Positions 9,650 through 24,825 of a DNA stretch of 64,000 nucleotides are shown one piece after another. Below the pieces are notes generated by a model, which had not been told where the DNA came from, did no database searches, and saw nothing but the letters and a program-made list of their open reading frames with translations. The position numbers and the translations under genes are program-made. The DNA is from Beverwykella pulmonaria (Eukaryota; Ascomycota; Dothideomycetes; Pleosporales; Melanommataceae), in contig BCHH01000001.1 in assembly GCA_001599595.1 (NCBI GenBank), forward strand, positions 4,245,068 to 4,309,067. The letters run 5' to 3'. Within the stretch, counting starts at the first letter, position 1. The number at the start of each line of letters is the position of its first letter.

Positions 9650-11164
9650 GTTTAACATTTCAATTTTTTTTGGTTCTTGCGTTGGATCATATACCCTTTA
9701 CGTTGTATTTCATCTTGTCTAGAACATCAATGTACTAATGATCTCCTTCTCTGTGGCAGGCCATTGAGACGGTGATGACTTTCTATTCTCAAATTTCGTA
9801 TAGAAACGTGCCCTCGTCATTCAATTTCTACTCTCAGACAAAGATCGCCCTCGAATCTCTCTTGTATGGTGCACAGTTATGGCTGCGAAAATCGAATAAA
9901 TTGGTATCGAACCGGCATTGGGTTGAGTGGCGAACATAGTTTTGGCATGGCATGGGCAAGGCAACGGTTATACCCCTGCATACACACTGGCGTTTCAAGC
10001 ATGACACGGCATGCATTCATGCTCAGCTATATATACAATATGCATTTGGCGGCGGTTTGCTTTCTGGCGTTCATCGGTCTTAGTGGAGATCTCCGATGCA
10101 GTAGTCCCCATATGGGATGCTGGATGTTGCCGGCGATCTCTCTGTGTATTAGTGAATGGAATGCTTGAATTTTTGGATATAGTGTGCATATGCTTCATGA
10201 TGTGTGCTGCGCCATGATTCTGATATTGTTTGTTTGCAGGCGTGAGGCGTTGGGTAGACAATAACTTTGTCACGTTGAGGGAGCGTTTGCAATATCTTTG
10301 TCACGTCGGTCTATATCTTGCTGCCGAACTGTGCCCACGTTTTCTATGTAATGTCCCCCCGTTGGATGGCGGAAAACCTACCGTGACGGAAAATATATGG
10401 GGTATTTTGACAAGTATACTTTCGAACGTTTAGGAACGTTTAGGGTCATTTTAACCTATAAACTACATCGCGGCCTTCTCTGTGGCTACCTTGTTTGGAC
10501 AAAGGCTCATCACTGGCTCGTCCTTAACGAAGTCGGTATCATTCTAACGCGATCACCTGTCTTGGTTAGAGTAAAGCCGCCCACACATTGTACATAATCA
10601 TTACGGTAATATTTATTTTTATTGGCTGTTAGACCTGTGGCTGCGCAAAGCCTTGGCAAGCGGGTCGATCCCAGCCCTACAGCCGCCTCGCGATTCAACT
10701 CAACCTTAGCCATGCTCATCAACCGACTCGACTCTCTAAAAACACCTACAGAATCGCCACCTTACAAGGGTGTGGCCAGATGCGACAAGCTTAAGGCAGC
10801 GTGGACGTTCGACAAAAGTAGGAAAAAGGACACGAGCTTCGGAGAAACATGCTTCCGTGCTTACTCTGCAGCGCAGCCTGATCGAACTGAAAAATGGACC
10901 ACCGGACCTGAAACCTATCAAACAGACAGCAAGGCTGAAAGGTTGTCACTGTGATACTGGTGAGTTAAAACTCAAGTAGTGTTTTCTGCACACGAAATTC
11001 CCTTGCTACTAGCGAGCACTTTTCGATTTCACGAGGTTTCACTAATAGCCGCTATAGTTGAACTTCGCACGATTGCCCCCCTCCGCTACCGCTACCTATG
11101 CGTAACGATTTACAATATAAACAACAGGAGAATACATATGGGAATAGGATAGCTGGATAACAGA
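9650..11164. other. Intergenic between DUF7492 and TPR-kinase genes
   Basis: No supported gene. It contains one copy of the shared TTTTCCGCC/GGGACRTTAC motif (10349-10378) and an ATG-less, domain-less stretch with open frames around 10622-10979. Those frames have no recognisable homology and are not called. Confidence 0.5.
10349..10378 (-). repeat. Shared ~30-bp motif, copy 1
   Basis: On the minus strand this reads GGTTTTCCGCCATCC, then AACGGGGGGACATTAC. The same architecture occurs on the plus strand at 16866-16894 and 25065-25092. It may be the end of a transposon or solo terminal repeats. Confidence 0.5.
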
Positions 11165-14062
11165 ATGGTCTTAGAGCTTAGATTGCAAGATAGACGAAAC
11201 GAGGAGTTTGAACCAGTACATGCACTCTATGAGAAAGAAAAGTGCAGTGAGACTGAAGGGCTTCCCCAACGAGTAGTAGACTGGCAAGAGAGGACACTTG
11301 GCAAAGACTATAAACAAACATTTGACAGCAAACACTTACTAGCACACACACTCTACGAGCAGAAGAAATACAACGAGGCTGAGGGGCTGTTCCGACAAGC
11401 AGCAGACGGGCGGGAGAGGATACTTGGCAAAGACCATGAACAAACATTTTACAGCAAACACTTTCTATCACACACACTCTACAATCAGAGGAAGTACAGC
11501 GAGGCTGAAGGGCTGCTCCAACAAGTAGTAGACGGGCGGGAGAGAACACTTGGCAAAGACAATGAACAAACACTTGACAGCAAACACTTGCTAGCACTCA
11601 CACTCTGCAAGCAGGAGAAGTACAGCGAGGCTGAAGGGCTGCTCCAGCAAGTAGCAGACGGGCTAGAGAAGACACTTGACAAAGACCATCAACAAACACT
11701 TTACAACAAACACCTGCTATCACACACACTATACAACCAGAGGAAGTACAGCGAGGCTGAAGGGCTGCTCCAACAAGTAGTAGACGGGTGGGAGAGAACA
11801 CTTGGAAAAGACAATGAAAAAACACTTGACAGCAAATGCTTGCTAGCACACACTTTCTATGAGCGGGAGAAGTATAGCGAGGCTGAAGGGCCGTTCCGAC
11901 AAGTAGTAGATGGGCTGGAGAGAACGCTTGGAAAAGACAATGAACAAACACTTGACAGCAAACACGTGCTAGCACACACACTCTACGAGCAGAAGAAGTA
12001 CAGCGAGGCTGAAGGGCTGCTCCAACAAGTAGTAGACGGGTGGGAGAGAACATTTGGAAAAGACAATGAACAAACACTTGGCAGCAAACACTTGCTAGTA
12101 GACACACTCTACGAGCAGAAGAAGTACAGTGAGGTCGAAGGGTTGCTCCAACAAGTAGTAGACGGGTGGGAGAGAACACTTGGAAAAGACAATGAACAAA
12201 CACTTTACAGCAAACACTTGTTAGCACACACTTTCTATGAGCAGGAGAAGTACAGCGAGGCTGAAGGGCCGTTCCGACAAGTAGTAGATGGGCTGGAGAG
12301 GACGCTTGGAAAAGACAATGAAAAAACACTTGACAGCAAACACTTGCTAGCACACACACTCTACGAGCAGAAGAAGTACAGCGAGGCTGAAGGGCTGCTC
12401 CAACAAGTAGTAGACGGGCGAGAGAAGGCACTTGGCAAAGACCATGAATACACGCTTGACAACAAACACTTGCTAGCACTCACACTCTACGACCAGAAGA
12501 ANTACAGTGAGGCTGAAGGGCTGTTCCGACAAGTAGTAGACGGGCGAGAGAGGACACTTGGCAAAGACCATGAATACACGCTTGACAGCAAGCACTTGCT
12601 AGGACACACACTCTACAATCAGAAGAAGTACAGCGAGGCGGAAAGGCCGCTCCAACAAGCAGCGGACGGGCGGGAGAGGACACTTGGCAAACGCCATAAA
12701 GACACACTTGCAACTGTACGCTTGTTACAAGAACTGCAACTATATTTCTCCTCGCTCTCAACAACTAAAAGCAATATTCAGCAGGCCTTAGCTAGCCAAC
12801 TAAACGCCTTCTTCTTAGACAGACAGGATGACCAGAAATTATTTACAGACTCTGAGATTTTTGAAATGTCAACGCTGTTAAAACACTCAAATCCGCAATG
12901 GAGCAAGGTACCACGGACGTATATTGTTCTTCGGACTATTGGCTATTTGCAATTCCTCGACAAAATTATCGACGCTGGCTTTTCTGATTACTGGTTCCCT
13001 GTTACTGAACACAGCCTTCCAGGCTGCTTACTCCCAAGCATTAAAGCGTTGTTTGTTAGAGCTCAGAGCCTAGTATTGACTTCGTCAATAGACCTTGAAA
13101 GGGGTAAACATGGACGGCATTGTTATTTCAAGGAAGGAGAATCTCCCCCCCTTGAGTCAAAAAGGATCTTGGGCGCTGGTGGGTTTGGTCAGGTTGACAA
13201 AGTTCTTAGCCAAATTAGCTTTAAGGAGTATGCTAGGAAACGGGTCTCTCGAAGTTCTGCCTTTAGGGGCCGACAGAAGGAGTACATAAAGCAGTTCATC
13301 GCTGAGATCGAAATCTTAAAGCGCCTTAAACACCACCACGTTGTAGACTTTGTCGGAAGCTACACAGATGCTAAATACATTGGCTTAATAATGAGTCCTG
13401 TTGCCGACATGGACCTAGCCGCTTATTTAGCTGGCGCTACTGTATCTCATCGCCCAGAGCTGAGGACCTTTTTTGGCTGCCTAGCCACCGCACTTGAGTT
13501 TCTGCATGAGAACCACATTCGACACAAGGATATCAAGCCAGGAAATATCCTTGTACACGCTGGTAACGTTTTGCTTACAGACTTTGGCTTATCTCTTGAC
13601 TTTACAGATGCAAGTGGTAGTACCACCATAAGCATGGTCAACGGGAAGAGCCCAAGATATTGCGCACCAGAAGTCGCTCGGGAAGAGCCTCGGAACACAA
13701 TGTCTGACATCTGGAGCCTAGGCACTGTCTTTATGGAGATAATTGTTGTTCTTAAGGGCAAATCAACTCAGTACATGGATCAATTCTACAAGCAGCACAG
13801 GTCATGGCAAGCCTTTATTTGCACAAACCCTGCTGCATTACCGGAGTTTGTTGCTGAAATTGAAGGGATAGGAGCGTGGTCAGACAACAGAGCCTTTAGT
13901 TGGACTCAAGAAATGCTCTCAGTGGAGCAGCAATTGCGTCCGACTGCATCGTCCCTAGTCACATCTATCACGGAGTCTAGCCAGGAAGAGGAAGGAACAG
14001 GTTTCTGTGGGATATGTTGTGTTTCTTCCGAAGAACAGTTTTCTGATTGGATGGAGGAGTGA
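11165..14062 (+). CDS. TPR-repeat / protein kinase fusion
   Basis: An intronless 965-residue protein. Residues 20-520 are twelve kinesin-light-chain-like TPR units of about 42 residues (consensus YSEAEGLLQQVVDG, then LGKDNEQTL), nearly identical to one another. A helical linker (about 530-660) contains FLDKIIDAGFSDYWFP. A kinase domain follows (about 664-930) with a Gly-rich loop GAGGFGQVDK (about 670), lysine in YARKRV, catalytic loop RHKDIKPGN (Asp789; Lys replaces the Arg of HRD), DFG (806) and a CAPE activation-segment end. All catalytic residues are present, so it is probably active. This linker-kinase module is familiar in filamentous ascomycetes next to ankyrin or TPR arrays; its biological role is not established. 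One base is undetermined (N near 12502). The start is the first ATG, with TPRs beginning almost at once, so a 5' exon could be missing. Confidence 0.88.
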   Translation: MVLELRLQDRRNEEFEPVHALYEKEKCSETEGLPQRVVDWQERTLGKDYKQTFDSKHLLAHTLYEQKKYNEAEGLFRQAADGRERILGKDHEQTFYSKHFLSHTLYNQRKYSEAEGLLQQVVDGRERTLGKDNEQTLDSKHLLALTLCKQEKYSEAEGLLQQVADGLEKTLDKDHQQTLYNKHLLSHTLYNQRKYSEAEGLLQQVVDGWERTLGKDNEKTLDSKCLLAHTFYEREKYSEAEGPFRQVVDGLERTLGKDNEQTLDSKHVLAHTLYEQKKYSEAEGLLQQVVDGWERTFGKDNEQTLGSKHLLVDTLYEQKKYSEVEGLLQQVVDGWERTLGKDNEQTLYSKHLLAHTFYEQEKYSEAEGPFRQVVDGLERTLGKDNEKTLDSKHLLAHTLYEQKKYSEAEGLLQQVVDGREKALGKDHEYTLDNKHLLALTLYDQKXYSEAEGLFRQVVDGRERTLGKDHEYTLDSKHLLGHTLYNQKKYSEAERPLQQAADGRERTLGKRHKDTLATVRLLQELQLYFSSLSTTKSNIQQALASQLNAFFLDRQDDQKLFTDSEIFEMSTLLKHSNPQWSKVPRTYIVLRTIGYLQFLDKIIDAGFSDYWFPVTEHSLPGCLLPSIKALFVRAQSLVLTSSIDLERGKHGRHCYFKEGESPPLESKRILGAGGFGQVDKVLSQISFKEYARKRVSRSSAFRGRQKEYIKQFIAEIEILKRLKHHHVVDFVGSYTDAKYIGLIMSPVADMDLAAYLAGATVSHRPELRTFFGCLATALEFLHENHIRHKDIKPGNILVHAGNVLLTDFGLSLDFTDASGSTTISMVNGKSPRYCAPEVAREEPRNTMSDIWSLGTVFMEIIVVLKGKSTQYMDQFYKQHRSWQAFICTNPAALPEFVAEIEGIGAWSDNRAFSWTQEMLSVEQQLRPTASSLVTSITESSQEEEGTGFCGICCVSSEEQFSDWMEE
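11290..12715 (+). repeat. 126-bp coding tandem repeats (TPR array)
   Basis: DNA repeats with a 126-bp period (42 codons) make up the TPR array of the fusion gene. For example, the word GAAGTACAGCGAGGCTGAAG recurs at 11494, 11620 and 11746. Neighbouring units differ at few positions, including synonymous ones, which indicates recent amplification or homogenisation rather than ancient divergence. Confidence 0.85.
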
Positions 14063-14791: not shown

Positions 14792-16594
14792 CTACGCGTT
14801 GATACTGGCGCCCTGGTCGAGCAGAAGCTTCACCACCTGCTCGTAGCCTTCAGCTGAAGCTGCCTCAAGCGCGGTGCTGTATACTCCACCTTCTGCATTG
14901 ACGTCGGCGCCCTTGTTGAGCAGCAGCTTCACCACCTGCTCGTGGCCTTGCAGTGAAGCCGCATGGAGTGCGTTACCATAGCGTCCACCTTGCACGTTGA
15001 CGTCGGCGCCCTTGTCGAGCAGCAGCTTCACCACCTGCTCGGTGCCTCCATATGAAGCCGCCTGGAGAGGGTTACCGTAGAATCCACCTNNNNNNNNNNN
15101 NNNNNNNNNNNNNNNNNNNNNNNNNNNNNNNNNNNNNNNNNNNNNNNNNNNNNNNNNNNNNNNNNNNNNNNNNNNNNNNNNNNNNNNNNNNNNNNNNNNN
15201 NNNNNNNNNNNNNNNNNNNNNNNNNNNNNNNNNNNNNNNNNNNNNNNNNNNNNNNNNNNNNNNNNNNNNNNNNNNNNNNNNNNNNNNNNNNNNNNNNNNN
15301 NNNNNNNNNNNNNNNNNNNNNNNNNNNNNNNNNNNNNNNNNNNNNNNNNNNNNNNNNNNNNNNNNNNNNNNNNNNNNNNNNNNNNNNNNNNNNNNNNNNN
15401 NNNNNNNNNNNNNNNNNNNNNNNNNNNNNNNNNNNNNNNNNNNNNNNNNNNNNNNNNNNNNNNNNNNNNNNNNNNNNNNNNNNNNNNNNNNNNNNNNNNN
15501 NNNNNNNNNNNNNNNNNNNNNNNNNNNNNNNNNNNNNNNNNNNNNNNNNNNNNNNNNNNNNNNNNNNNNNNNNNNNNNNNNNNNNNNNNNNNNNNNNNNN
15601 NNNNNNNNNNNNNNNNNNNNNNNNNNNNNNNNNNNNNNNNNNNNNNNNNNNNNNNNNNNNNNNNNNNNNNNNNNNNNNNNNNNNNNNNNNNNNNNNNNNN
15701 NNNNNNNNNNNNNNNNNNNNNNNNNNNNNNNNNNNNNNNNNNNNNNNNNNNNNNNNNNNNNNNNNNNNNNNNNNNNNNNNNNNNNNNNNNNNNNNNNNNN
15801 NNNNNNNNNNNNNNNNNNNNNNNNNNNNNNNNNNNNNNNNNNNNNNNNNNNNNTCCACCTTGTGCGTTGACGTCGGCGCCCTTGTCGAGCAGCAGCTTCA
15901 CCACCTGCTCGGTGCCTCCGTATGAAGCTGCCCGGAGTGGGTTACCGTAGACTCCATCTTTTGCGTTGACGTCGGCGCCGTTGTTGAGCAGCAGCTTCGC
16001 CACCTGCTCGTGGCCTTGCGATGAAGCTGCCTGGAGTGCGTTGCCGTAGAATCCACCTTGCGCGTTGACGTCGGCGCCCTTGTTGAGCAGCAGCTTCACC
16101 ACCTGCTCGTGGCCTTGCGATGAAGCTGCCTGGAGTGCGTTGCCGTACTCTCCACCTTGTGCGTTAATGTGGGCGCCCTTATTGAGCAGCAACTTCACCA
16201 CCTGCTCGTGGCCTCCGTATGAAGCCGCCTGGAGTGCACTGCCGTAGTGTCCACCTTGCGCGTTGACGTCGGCGCCCTTGTCGAGCAGCAGCTTAGCTAT
16301 CCCCTCATGCCCTTTCTCTGCTGCCGACAACAGCGATGTCTGGTTGCAGTCACCTGTGGCTTGCACATTGGCTCCTTCTCCTAGCAGTCTTCGAACCGTT
16401 GCCTCTTGTCCATGCTGGGCAGCCCAGAACAGCGCTGAGCTTCTGGACTGTTGTATGTTGTGACGGTAGAGATAGTTGTTTAGCAGACAGTAAAGGTGGC
16501 GGTTAGCCTGCGCAAATGCGTTGATATCTCTCTCCGATTCTAAATTTTCTGATATGCAATGGAGAAACTCGTTCGCTAAATCAAGTAGCAGCAT
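14792..16594 (-). CDS. F-box/ankyrin-repeat protein (interrupted by assembly gap)
   Basis: The ATG at 16594 opens an F-box-like segment (LANEFLHCISENLESERDI, residues 5-45), followed by 33-residue ankyrin repeats up to the stop at 14792. Six repeats are visible before the 764-base N run (15090-15853) and three after it. Most share the core EQVVKLLLNKGADVNAQGG. F-box/ankyrin proteins normally recruit substrates to an SCF ubiquitin ligase, with the ankyrin array as the binding surface; that role is inferred here. The last repeat ends in ASINA-stop with no further domain. The frame is open on both sides and the N run preserves it, but the real number of repeats is unknown. Confidence 0.8.
   Translation of the reverse strand: MLLLDLANEFLHCISENLESERDINAFAQANRHLYCLLNNYLYRHNIQQSRSSALFWAAQHGQEATVRRLLGEGANVQATGDCNQTSLLSAAEKGHEGIAKLLLDKGADVNAQGGHYGSALQAASYGGHEQVVKLLLNKGAHINAQGGEYGNALQAASSQGHEQVVKLLLNKGADVNAQGGFYGNALQAASSQGHEQVAKLLLNNGADVNAKDGVYGNPLRAASYGGTEQVVKLLLDKGADVNAQGGXXXXXXXXXXXXXXXXXXXXXXXXXXXXXXXXXXXXXXXXXXXXXXXXXXXXXXXXXXXXXXXXXXXXXXXXXXXXXXXXXXXXXXXXXXXXXXXXXXXXXXXXXXXXXXXXXXXXXXXXXXXXXXXXXXXXXXXXXXXXXXXXXXXXXXXXXXXXXXXXXXXXXXXXXXXXXXXXXXXXXXXXXXXXXXXXXXXXXXXXXXXXXXXXXXXXXXXXXXXXXXXXXXXXXXXXXXXXXXXXXXXXXXXXXXXXXXXGGFYGNPLQAASYGGTEQVVKLLLDKGADVNVQGGRYGNALHAASLQGHEQVVKLLLNKGADVNAEGGVYSTALEAASAEGYEQVVKLLLDQGASINA
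15090..15853. other. Assembly gap (764 N)
   Basis: A run of undetermined bases lies inside the ankyrin array. Both flanks carry the same repeat type (YGG-TEQVVKLLLDKGADVN), so the gap probably reflects near-identical repeats that could not be assembled. Measured between equivalent points of the flanking units the distance is 771 bp, which is 7.8 units of 99 bp rather than a whole number. Confidence 0.97.
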
Positions 16595-16865
16595 TGCTAA
16601 AGCAACGTTTAGCTGGCAGGTGCTATGAAGTACGCCTAAAGGAGTGAGTTTAAGGAGGATGGTGAGGCAGGCAACAGGGCAGCTGAGTAAGCGCTCTGCT
16701 CGTCCATAATTACTACATCACGTGGCCGGTAGACATTCGGCCCGAGGACCCCCGAAGTGCCCTTCGCGAAACAGGAGTATCTCACAAGAACTATATTCGT
16801 AACTTAATAGAACCGCAGGAGAGAGCGTTAAGATGCTTAAATAATATATTTATTCTGACATAGGT

Positions 16866-21966: not shown

Positions 21967-23983
21967 TCAAATGCCAATCTCCATATTCTCCAACCGCCAC
22001 CTGTTTAGAGCTCGTAGTGATGATGCTGTGCGTGGGTGCAGAGGGCCAAGCACGTGTTTGCATAGTTGGAAGCATTTTTCCAGAAGTACAATAGCGTCGG
22101 TATTGCGAGATTGGCCCCTTAACGTAAATGCAAGATTGTTCATGCTGATTAGCGTGTCTGGATGTTCCCCCCAAGCACCCTCGCACTCGTCTCCATCACT
22201 TGCACAAACAGCTCTTCGGCCTCTTTCCACCGCCCTTGATTCCCGTACGTCGACGCCAGGTTGGCTATGCTGGTTAGCGTGTCTGGATGCTCCTTCCCAA
22301 GCACCCTCGCACTTATCTCCATCACTTGCACAAACAGCTCTTCAGCTTCCTTCCACCGCCCCTGATTTCTGTATGCCGACGCAAGGTTGGCTATGCTGGT
22401 CAGCGTGTCTGGATGCTCCACGCCCAGTACCCTCACACTCGTCTCCATCACTTGCACCTCCAGCTCTTCGGCCTCCTTCCACCGCCCTTGATTCCTGTAC
22501 GTCGACGCCAGGTTGGCTATGCTGGTCAGCGTGTCTGGATGCTCGTCCCCAAGCACCCTCTTTCTCGTCTCCATCGCTTGCACAAATAATTCCTCTGGCT
22601 CGTTGTACCGTCCGTCGCTATGCAGTGTCATGGCACATTTCCATTCCATGATCATCCTATCCGCGCCTTCTTGTTCAGTAAGACTATGTGACAGAGCATA
22701 CTTAGCATGTGGAAGTAATCGTCTCCACTTGCTTCTACTACTATTATCATGGTTTGGAAACACTTTGAGTAGGCGTGTAATTGCATTTTGGGTCCATAGG
22801 CACAGCCAATCCTGCTTTTAGAGCCACTCCCATAGGGCACAATGTACTAGTTGGTGGAGATCAAGTGCGGATTCAGCAGGTCGCCTTGTAACAAGCGCGT
22901 AGCTGTTGAGAATTTTTATTGCGTCTTCTCTTTCATGAGGTGAGGATGCTTCCAGAAGATCGAGCGGAATATCTTTTTGGTCTACGCATGCCAAAAGGAA
23001 TAGATAGTCAGCTGTCAGCGAATTATTACGACGGATCTGGTCCACTGAGATGAGAAGTGTGGTTGCTACAGGACTTTTTGTATTGCAGTCTTGTTCTTGT
23101 AGCTTTCCCTCAGATAATTTGCCGCTATGCTTGAGAGTTTCCTCTTTTTCCCTGACTAGTTGTGATAAGTAGTTCTGCAGGGTGAAAAAGCTGCACGGCT
23201 TAGTCCTCGTCCATAGCGGGCACTTCCTTGATATTATTGTAGCCTCCTACTAGCCAGGTTGCAGCATCCTTGCTTCGCGATGTGACTAAGATGGATCCAT
23301 TGCGGCTCTAGGGCAGGAATGCTGCCAACGCCGCTGGCATGCCCTCAGAATCGTCCCTTCTGCGTTTTTGCTTTAGATAGAACACTTCAACATTATCTGC
23401 ATTGTCCAGCACCATAGTCCACCGCCCGTTGGCGTCGTCGCGCAGCCAGTTCCTTACTAGCTGGAGTGTGTTGATCTTGGGGTCGTTTTGGCCAGGAAGC
23501 TCTAGCTGATCCGCGATGCTTTGGTATGCTTCTTCAAAGCGTGCCCGGGTGCTGGCGTGCACCCAGAACACCCAGGTCTGCGGCGACGCTTCGCGGACAT
23601 TGTAGCAGTGTTGGATGGCGAGCTGCGACTTGCTGTGGCATTGTTTAATGTAAAGCACAGTTAACTAGTAGTGGTAACGTACCCTATACCCCCAAGACCA
23701 ACAAGGGCCGCGCGACTGGCTGGGGCGGCGCAATTCTCGCAGATCCAGGCTAGGATGTCAGGGCGATTGACAAAGTCGGGGTCACGGCGGAATGGGACCG
23801 TTGAGAAGGGCTTGCGTTTTCGCTGCTGCTCTGTTGGCTGTTAGGTGTGCAGAGGTTAATACTCAGGTCCAGTGTACCGTTTGCTGTAGGCCTAAAGTTA
23901 AAGTTCATCGTACCGCCCGGCCCGCAGTGCGGGGCAGGTATAACGATATGGCCGTCAATGGGCCCATGGTACTCGCTGGCCAT
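21967..23983 (-). pseudogene. NB-ARC/TPR NOD-like receptor, decayed
   Basis: The order is a short N-terminal peptide, NB-ARC NTPase, then kinesin-light-chain TPRs, as in fungal NOD-like receptors. Exon 1 (23983-23878) starts MASEYHGPIDG. Introns 23877-23831 and 23682-23633 are both well formed. The second splits the P-loop GLGGIGKSQLA, and its splicing restores it. LRNWLRDDANGRWTMVLDN resembles the Walker B region. The frame then breaks: TAG at 23308-23310, TAA at 23200-23202, a shift near 23184-23196, TAA at 22818-22820 and a shift in a six-base C run (22167-22172). Five TPR-like units remain (core LGxEHPDTLTSIANLAS). All three stops can come from CAG or CAA by C-to-T change. It is very probably non-functional as a full-length receptor. 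Confidence 0.82.
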
Positions 23984-24216
23984 CCTTGGGGTAGACTGTC
24001 CTCCGGCATAGAGCGGGAGTGGAGGCGATGGTGGAGCGACGTGGTGTTTTCAACTGCGCAGATCAGTTGAAGTGTTGGCTGCGCCTCGCGTTGCATCCAG
24101 TTCCATCGCTCTTGCTGCACACACCATATTGTACTTCTCGATATTTCGACACGACACGCTATGCTCAAAACTTTCTCTGTCCATTTCTTCATCTACAGGT
24201 GTCTGACGACCTTATC
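23984..24216. promoter_or_regulatory. Shared divergent upstream region of NLR and HET pseudogenes
   Basis: The two decayed genes face away from each other with start codons 233 bp apart, so one short region must have held both promoters. No specific operator was recognised. Confidence 0.4.
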
Positions 24217-24572
24217 ATGCGTCTCCTCACCCTAGACGACGATGGCGAGCTCAGCCTGATCAAGTTTGGTGGGCGATAATATCCCTCGCTACGCTATTCT
24301 GTCGCATACTTGGAAACAAGCGGCGGAAGATAACCTCCAATACATTTTAGTAGACACTTGTCGCGTCAACAAGTCAAGCAGCGCAAATCCTTCTAAGGCA
24401 ATCAACTCCATGTTCCACTAGTGCTGTGATGTAACCAAATGCTACGTGTATCTATCCAATCTTTTAATTAGATAAATCCATTAGAAACGACATATCCTCA
24501 TAGCAGATATTGGAATCAGCCTTTCAGCACAGCGAATAGTTTACTCAAGGCTAGACGCTCTTAGAGCTCTAA
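24217..24572 (+). pseudogene. HET-domain (heterokaryon incompatibility) gene remnant
   Basis: Starts with the typical HET opening MRLLTLDDDGELSLIKF (ATG 24217). The frame shifts in the GGTGGG at 24268-24273, then continues GDNIPRYAILSHTWKQAAED, VDTCRVNKSSS and AINSMFH, with TAG at 24419-24421 where the family has Trp/Arg. The piece around SHTW is shortened relative to the family (an internal deletion). A further segment at 24510-24572 reads ESAFQHSE, stop, FTQG, stop, TLLEL, matching the family's ESAF-HS-WFTRGWTLQEL with TAG at both Trp positions. HET domains trigger cell death on non-self recognition; this copy cannot make one. Confidence 0.8.
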
Positions 24573-24638
24573 CATCTTTGCACAGCCACAGATCTAACAG
24601 CCGCTACGAGTGAATTACACCGTATAGACTTATTCTAT

Positions 24639-24825
24639 TGTAAGCAGGACACTCTGTCACGTGGATATGCCACTGACTAATCAGTCCGTCATATACATAT
24701 CTCATACACTCATCATACACATATCACACACATACCACACACACACATCACACGTACATATATACATACACACACAGACATACAATACACATCTTGATAC
24801 TCTTTCCTCCACGCTCCAGCTTACA
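24639..24825 (-). mobile_element. MITE-like element, copy 2 (with CA-rich core)
   Basis: A 187-bp element. Its outer 7 bp are a perfect inverted repeat (TGTAAGC / GCTTACA), and TCTAT flanks it directly on both sides (24634-24638 and 24826-24830), a likely 5-bp target duplication. The left end continues AGGACACTCTGTCACGTGG and CCACTGACTAATCAGTCCGTC-like sequence; the right end is CTCTTTCCTCCACGCTCCA before the terminal repeat. The core is an expanded CA/TACA microsatellite (about 24700-24790). It has no coding capacity. Confidence 0.75.

Follow-up and report, generated by a model that had tools for sequence, protein, structure and literature searches.

A decayed divergent HET/NLR pair in Beverwykella pulmonaria, a likely relic of gene pairs with NWD2/HET-S-like logic

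A 64,000-nucleotide stretch of the Beverwykella pulmonaria genome (the window; C1:4245068-4309067, in a genome of 45.6 Mb on 31 contigs) holds a NOD-like receptor (NLR) gene and a HET-domain gene that lie head to head and are both interrupted by stop codons, which raises the question of what the two genes once did together and what broke them. We consider it likely that they represent a dead member of a class of divergent HET/NLR pairs working by the logic of NWD2/HET-S, with the HET protein as the killer, and that they decayed by a route other than repeat-induced point mutation (RIP). Our main claim is that such pairs probably work like NWD2/HET-S; it does not extend to membership of a named motif family. 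We found a common layout, a shared motif, conservation of that motif, and a second kind of effector with the same tail. The receptor was of the NB-ARC-tetratricopeptide repeat (TPR) type, with an N-terminal motif and no effector domain; it and a HET gene were once divergent neighbours, and intact relatives of the latter end in a similar motif.

Two broken genes in divergent orientation

The NLR start codon lies at 23981-23983 on the minus strand and the HET start codon at 24217-24219 on the plus strand, leaving a shared upstream region of 233 bp (23984..24216), the distance reported by a first-pass annotation that had described the genes as head to head. The NLR-proximal part of this region aligns with the C8, C1 and C6 copies, and the HET-proximal part with C8 (in short pieces) and C15. 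The same annotation had listed three stops in each gene, all of which were recovered: TAG 23308, TAA 23200 and TAA 22818 on the minus strand in the NLR, and TAG 24419, 24537 and 24552 on the plus strand in the HET gene. Its statement that each could arise by a single C-to-T or G-to-A change fits the paralogous codons. Position 23308 corresponds to CAG in four of five aligned NLR paralogs and to AAG in the fifth (C6), 23200 to CAA in all five, and 22818 to CAA in one of two aligned relatives and GAA in the other; all three HET stops correspond to TGG in each of the five aligned HET paralogs.

Both genes are broken beyond what that annotation saw. The HET remnant (24217..24600, plus strand), as delimited by paralog alignment, is an NLR-type HET gene reduced to roughly its first 150 codons, with the C-terminus lost. 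It carries frameshifts and, relative to the HET gene at C15, a deletion of 93 bp after SHTW. Its three stops fall in frames 1, 2 and 2 relative to the HET ATG, from which it follows that this gene, too, is frameshifted. The damage to the NLR is described below.

The TPR part of the NLR matched the Pfam model TPR_10 at 1.4e-53. In the Pfam scan, the NB-ARC piece alone fell below the threshold of the NB-ARC model and the HET piece alone gave no match; the identification of both rests on paralogs. The resemblances exceed chance: a genome search gave 43 places for the NB-ARC piece and 94 for the HET relic (at E<=1), the query included in both counts, and the genome as a whole yielded at least 155 HET matches.

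The layout at paralogous loci

The divergent NLR/HET layout was found at four paralogous loci (the window, C8, C2:3622 and C15), at each of which at least one partner is broken. The start codons are separated by 233 bp in the window, 243 bp at C8, approximately 218 bp at C2:3622 and 267 bp at C15 (to a start-like NLR ATG), and the intervals are alignable in part. Because these loci are kin, they count as one ancestral arrangement. At C8, an open A-type NLR faces, on the opposite strand, a HET gene that is preserved for its initial 45 codons and decayed thereafter; at C2:3622, an NLR has a more decayed HET start at the corresponding place. C15 shows the reverse condition, an open HET gene of 300 residues that faces the start-like NLR ATG across 267 bp; the NLR beyond is shattered. 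Differences between the C15 HET gene and four paralogs lie mostly at third codon positions (e.g. 46/35/108 over 250 codons). A search for HET at 22 loci gave matches from four only, namely C8, C2:3622 and the window locus, which was represented by two cuts, and none in the flanks examined of C1, C12, C19, C6 and the rest.

A HET domain lies just upstream on the same strand at 11 of the 43 NB-ARC places, which fits a fused form. The window pair does not have this all-in-one form, in which HET is fused N-terminally on the same strand: its HET gene is on the opposite strand, 233 bp off. The first-pass annotation had read the two genes as a linked recognition/effector pair, now lost, and the head-to-head layout at three further paralogous loci supports that reading.

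A motif shared by receptor and effector

The A-type NLRs, to which the 5′ part of the window NLR belongs, start with a motif of approximately 25 residues of the form FHGPIDGHVVVPAPYCGPGGTMNFNF. In the window, the NLR start and motif (MASEYHGPIDGHIVIPAPHCGPGGTMNFNF; 23894..23983, minus strand) show 87% identity to the motif of the C8 NLR, and a related motif forms the C-terminus of the C15 HET protein, which terminates in FNAPISGRNVIPAPRVEGGTMNFNFPG immediately before its stop. The motif takes the place of an N-terminal effector domain in the window NLR, whose N-terminal piece gave one sub-threshold, unrelated match and no amyloid-motif model in the Pfam scan. Searched against the whole genome at E<=10, the NLR form of the motif matched nine places: eight are NLR N-termini, among them that of the window NLR, and the ninth, with the weakest match (E 9.5e-4), is the C-terminus of the C15 HET protein. 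The converse whole-genome search with the HET-type query returned eight places, the C15 HET gene and seven of the NLRs.

The motif was also found in other fungi, where 38 of 120 listed HET relatives carry it, in 36 cases within 20 residues of the end. The window HET gene has lost its own end; the motif is seen there at C15 and in these relatives. Assemblies of Polyplosphaeria fusca, Ophiobolus disseminans and Stemphylium lycopersici are examples that contain motif HETs as well as motif NLRs. A 52-residue tail query listed 18 proteins, 11 of them HETs and seven of them hydrolases resembling SesB lipases; the latter are of the DUF676 type, which is SesB-like. The motif stands within nine residues of the end in six of the seven hydrolases, and 107 residues follow it in P0250. 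When a profile built from the HET tails was used in turn, 62 of 120 listed NLRs matched it within their first 40 residues (E<1e-3). Among 33 motif-bearing HETs, rows chosen for the motif, the majority-residue share was 0.83 for the HET domain and 0.86 for the motif, with 0.54 for the linker and 0.51 for the residues that follow the motif. AlphaFold2 gave residues 249-294 of P0071 a predicted local distance difference test score below 50, as expected of a free tail.

Nine proteins scanned against Pfam to E=1 (motif HETs, motif hydrolases and NLRs, three of each) returned no amyloid-motif model, with weak matches dropped by the HMMER filters and the best 25 families each covered for two of the NLRs, P0126 and P0157; the sigma control P0085 matched PF17106 at 2.2e-10 in the same scan. 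The stand-alone HETs P0085 and P0107 both carry this sigma motif, P0085 at its C-terminus, so more than one motif is found on HET tails.

Two other explanations of the layout and of the motif have to be weighed here. With at least 155 HET matches and 43 NB-ARC places in the genome, a stray HET fragment might have come to rest beside an NLR fragment by chance. With the number of HET genes set at 300, close to the 301 candidates counted initially, rough arithmetic gives an expectation of 0.04 such cases among 40 NLRs, and four loci share the divergent layout at approximately 218-267 bp with partly alignable intervals; we regard chance neighbourhood as scarcely credible. The motif, for its part, might be a mere trace of descent without a signalling role, left on both products when an all-in-one HET-NB-ARC-TPR gene came apart or was duplicated in part, each product retaining a piece of the linker. 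The 11 same-strand HET domains mentioned above are in keeping with this history, as are 17 of the 120 HET relatives that continue into NLR linker or P-loop sequence, and the ends of P0010 and P0013 resemble the part of the NLRs that surrounds and follows the motif. Against it, the motif also occurs on the seven hydrolases, which are unlike HET, and its conservation equals that of the HET domain, unlike that of the preceding linker (in rows chosen for the motif). We therefore consider a trace of descent unlikely as the explanation of the motif, and prefer a signalling role.

Proposed mechanism and known systems

If such pairs work as we propose, the TPR part would sense a non-self cue and the receptor would oligomerise; its N-terminal motif, a putative amyloid, would then template the C-terminal motif of the HET protein, and the clustered, TIR-like HET domains would kill the cell. 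The window copy is dead on both sides, its receptor being an out-of-frame chimera and its HET gene lacking the C-terminus. The C15 HET protein, the sole surviving motif-bearing HET, could serve other motif-bearing NLRs in trans. We put forward only tentatively a broader possibility, somewhat short of an even prospect: an unnamed, widespread motif of amyloid type may link stand-alone, TIR-like HETs and SesB-like lipases to ascomycete NB-ARC-TPR receptors, giving many 'orphan' HETs a receptor, and in this genome several NLRs that have lost their own partners may share one surviving HET as their effector.

NWD2 is a NACHT-WD protein, whereas the NLR studied here is of the NB-ARC-TPR type. NWD2/HET-S of Podospora anserina consists, like the present pair, of a divergent adjacent NLR and cell-death gene, with a motif at the NLR N-terminus and the effector C-terminus (PMC3321046, PMC9815663). 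The effector is HeLo there and HET here, and the motif proteins scanned in this study had no Pfam HET-s match. The sigma cluster (sesA/sesB/het-eN) and the PP cluster (HELLP/SBP/PNT1) are also comparable in that one motif occurs on an NLR and two effectors, with the predicted lipase SESB in the sigma case (PMC5485727); the motif described here is common to HETs and DUF676-type hydrolases, and no PF17106 or PF17046 match appeared for the proteins that bear it. A third motif of fungal NLRs and effectors, the PNP_UDP-associated motif (PUASM), was found by the same logic (PMC9815663), but its effector is PNP_UDP and its published pattern FxGxGxQxxGxGxF does not fit ours by eye. HET also acts as the effector of an NLR in the HNWD-type HET-NLRs HET-E, HET-D and HET-R (PMC12881547). 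Unlike in those proteins, HET and NLR are separate divergent genes at our locus, and an all-in-one HET-NB-ARC-TPR gene (C3) also exists in this genome.

A HET protein as the killer in an NWD2/HET-S-like pairing has been looked for before: Daskalov and colleagues sought HET/STAND gene pairs in 2012 and reported none (PMC3321046). The open text of a 2022 motif survey includes HET among its 19 effector profiles and ties paired motifs to pore-forming and PNP_UDP effectors (PMC9815663), and the accessible part of a 2025 text names HET beside HeLo-like effectors for older motifs, where something other than the HET domain may be meant. In the literature listings and open text passages covered, figures, supplements and subscription papers aside, no HET effector was described as having this motif in common with an NLR. 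A conserved tail that also begins NLRs would assign a class of HETs to receptors. The window itself is a fossil, valuable as a pointer to that class, and illustrates one way in which such pairs die, through recombination between NLR subfamilies and loss of the effector end.

The NLR relic as a chimera of two subfamilies

As judged from paralog comparison, the window NLR is chimeric, with sequence from two NLR subfamilies that meet at approximately 23183. Its A-subfamily 5′ part (23184..23983, minus strand) comprises the N-terminal motif, the linker, a P-loop with an intron and the NB-ARC domain with stops 23308 and 23200; from 23183 to approximately 24095, the window resembles the NLRs at C8, C1, C12 and C19 at 78-83% DNA identity. 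Past 23183, those four remain 74-88% alike among themselves over at least 1.1 kb, and the window tracks the C3 NLR from the very first base (77.7% over 1064 bp). The C3 gene is the all-in-one HET-NB-ARC-TPR gene, with an open frame of 1048 residues. On the evidence of sequence, Pfam and paralogs, the 3′ part (21967..23183, minus strand) belongs to this B subfamily and comprises a winged-helix/DUF7779-like region and 126-bp TPR units, with stop 22818 and a second frame break in the last TPR unit, near 22150-22170.

At the junction (23183..23190, minus strand), the frame is lost, and a segment with the xPLAI stretch, which we take to be GLPL-like, is present in both parents and gone from the window NLR. 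Because the junction breaks the frame and this segment is missing, the fusion was probably dead from its formation. The first-pass annotation had noted that the TPR part is better kept, which is accounted for by the derivation of the C-terminal half from another NLR subfamily.

The cause of the decay

Window-lineage changes were polarised against paralogs, and C-to-T changes at CpA were compared with those at other C, with an odds ratio for each part. Over 514 sites the NB-ARC part had 31 changes, of which 20 were C:G to T:A (CpA 8/70, CpG 10/76, CpT 2/67, CpC 0/81), and the HET part 76 changes at 278 sites (CpA 11/45, CpC 7/28, CpG 11/26, CpT 6/36); the winged-helix part had 32 at 296 sites (CpA 3/34) and the TPR part 33 at 396 sites (CpA 4/61). 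The CpA odds ratios were 2.28 (p 0.10) for NB-ARC, 0.78 for winged-helix, 0.99 for TPR and 0.89 for HET.

The first-pass annotation had called the stops in both genes RIP-like, and all six stops are compatible with a CpA-to-TpA change on one strand or the other. Such stops alone are no proof of RIP, because a transition can turn CAA, CAG or TGG into a stop only where it hits a CpA/TpG step, TGG having its second G as a further site. The NB-ARC part, with its preponderance of C:G to T:A changes, comes nearest to a CpA excess, yet CpG changed as often there, and the HET counts given above show no excess at CpA. With a CpA excess in none of the four parts, and with indels and a recombination junction at the locus besides, we judge RIP very unlikely to have destroyed the genes. 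Two other NLR relics, C15 (odds ratio 2.03, p 0.04) and C4 (1.47, p 0.26), were compared, and neither is a clear RIP case that could act as a positive control for this genome. A working NLR, in which extra introns splice out the stops, is highly improbable as well. The family has small introns, and splicing near some of the stops would be possible from the letters alone; against this, the NB-ARC stops lie in codons that are open in five aligned paralogs, the junction breaks the frame with a segment missing, and third positions are not favoured among the lineage changes of the NB-ARC exon (10/5/6 changes at 133/134/95 sites, which are small numbers). Given the frameshifts in both genes, the 93-bp deletion and the recombination joint, the comparison indicates that the pair decayed by ordinary mutation and recombination, not by RIP.

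Repeats and neighbouring genes

Just beyond the HET remnant lies a dispersed, MITE-like (miniature inverted-repeat transposable element) repeat of 187 bp (24639..24825, no strand assigned), with ends TGTAAGC...GCTTACA and flanks TCTAT as read from the sequence. A genome search listed 48 matches, this copy included, many of which have their ends in common, near query positions 100 and 286. Sequence resembling part of the repeat also occurs inside the decayed C15 NLR, and a piece of it lies next to an A-type NB-ARC copy at C4:2940361-2940972 that has nine stops and is heavily decayed.

Several repeat-rich genes lie within approximately 13 kb of the NLR/HET pair. An open reading frame of 969 residues (11153-14062, plus strand) encodes a protein kinase domain preceded by approximately 11.7 similar TPR units of 126 bp, and is adjoined by a gene that appears ankyrin-like by eye (14792-16717, minus strand), with similar 99-bp units. 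Elsewhere in the window, a 59-bp tandem repeat is present in 2.8 copies at 2009-2173.
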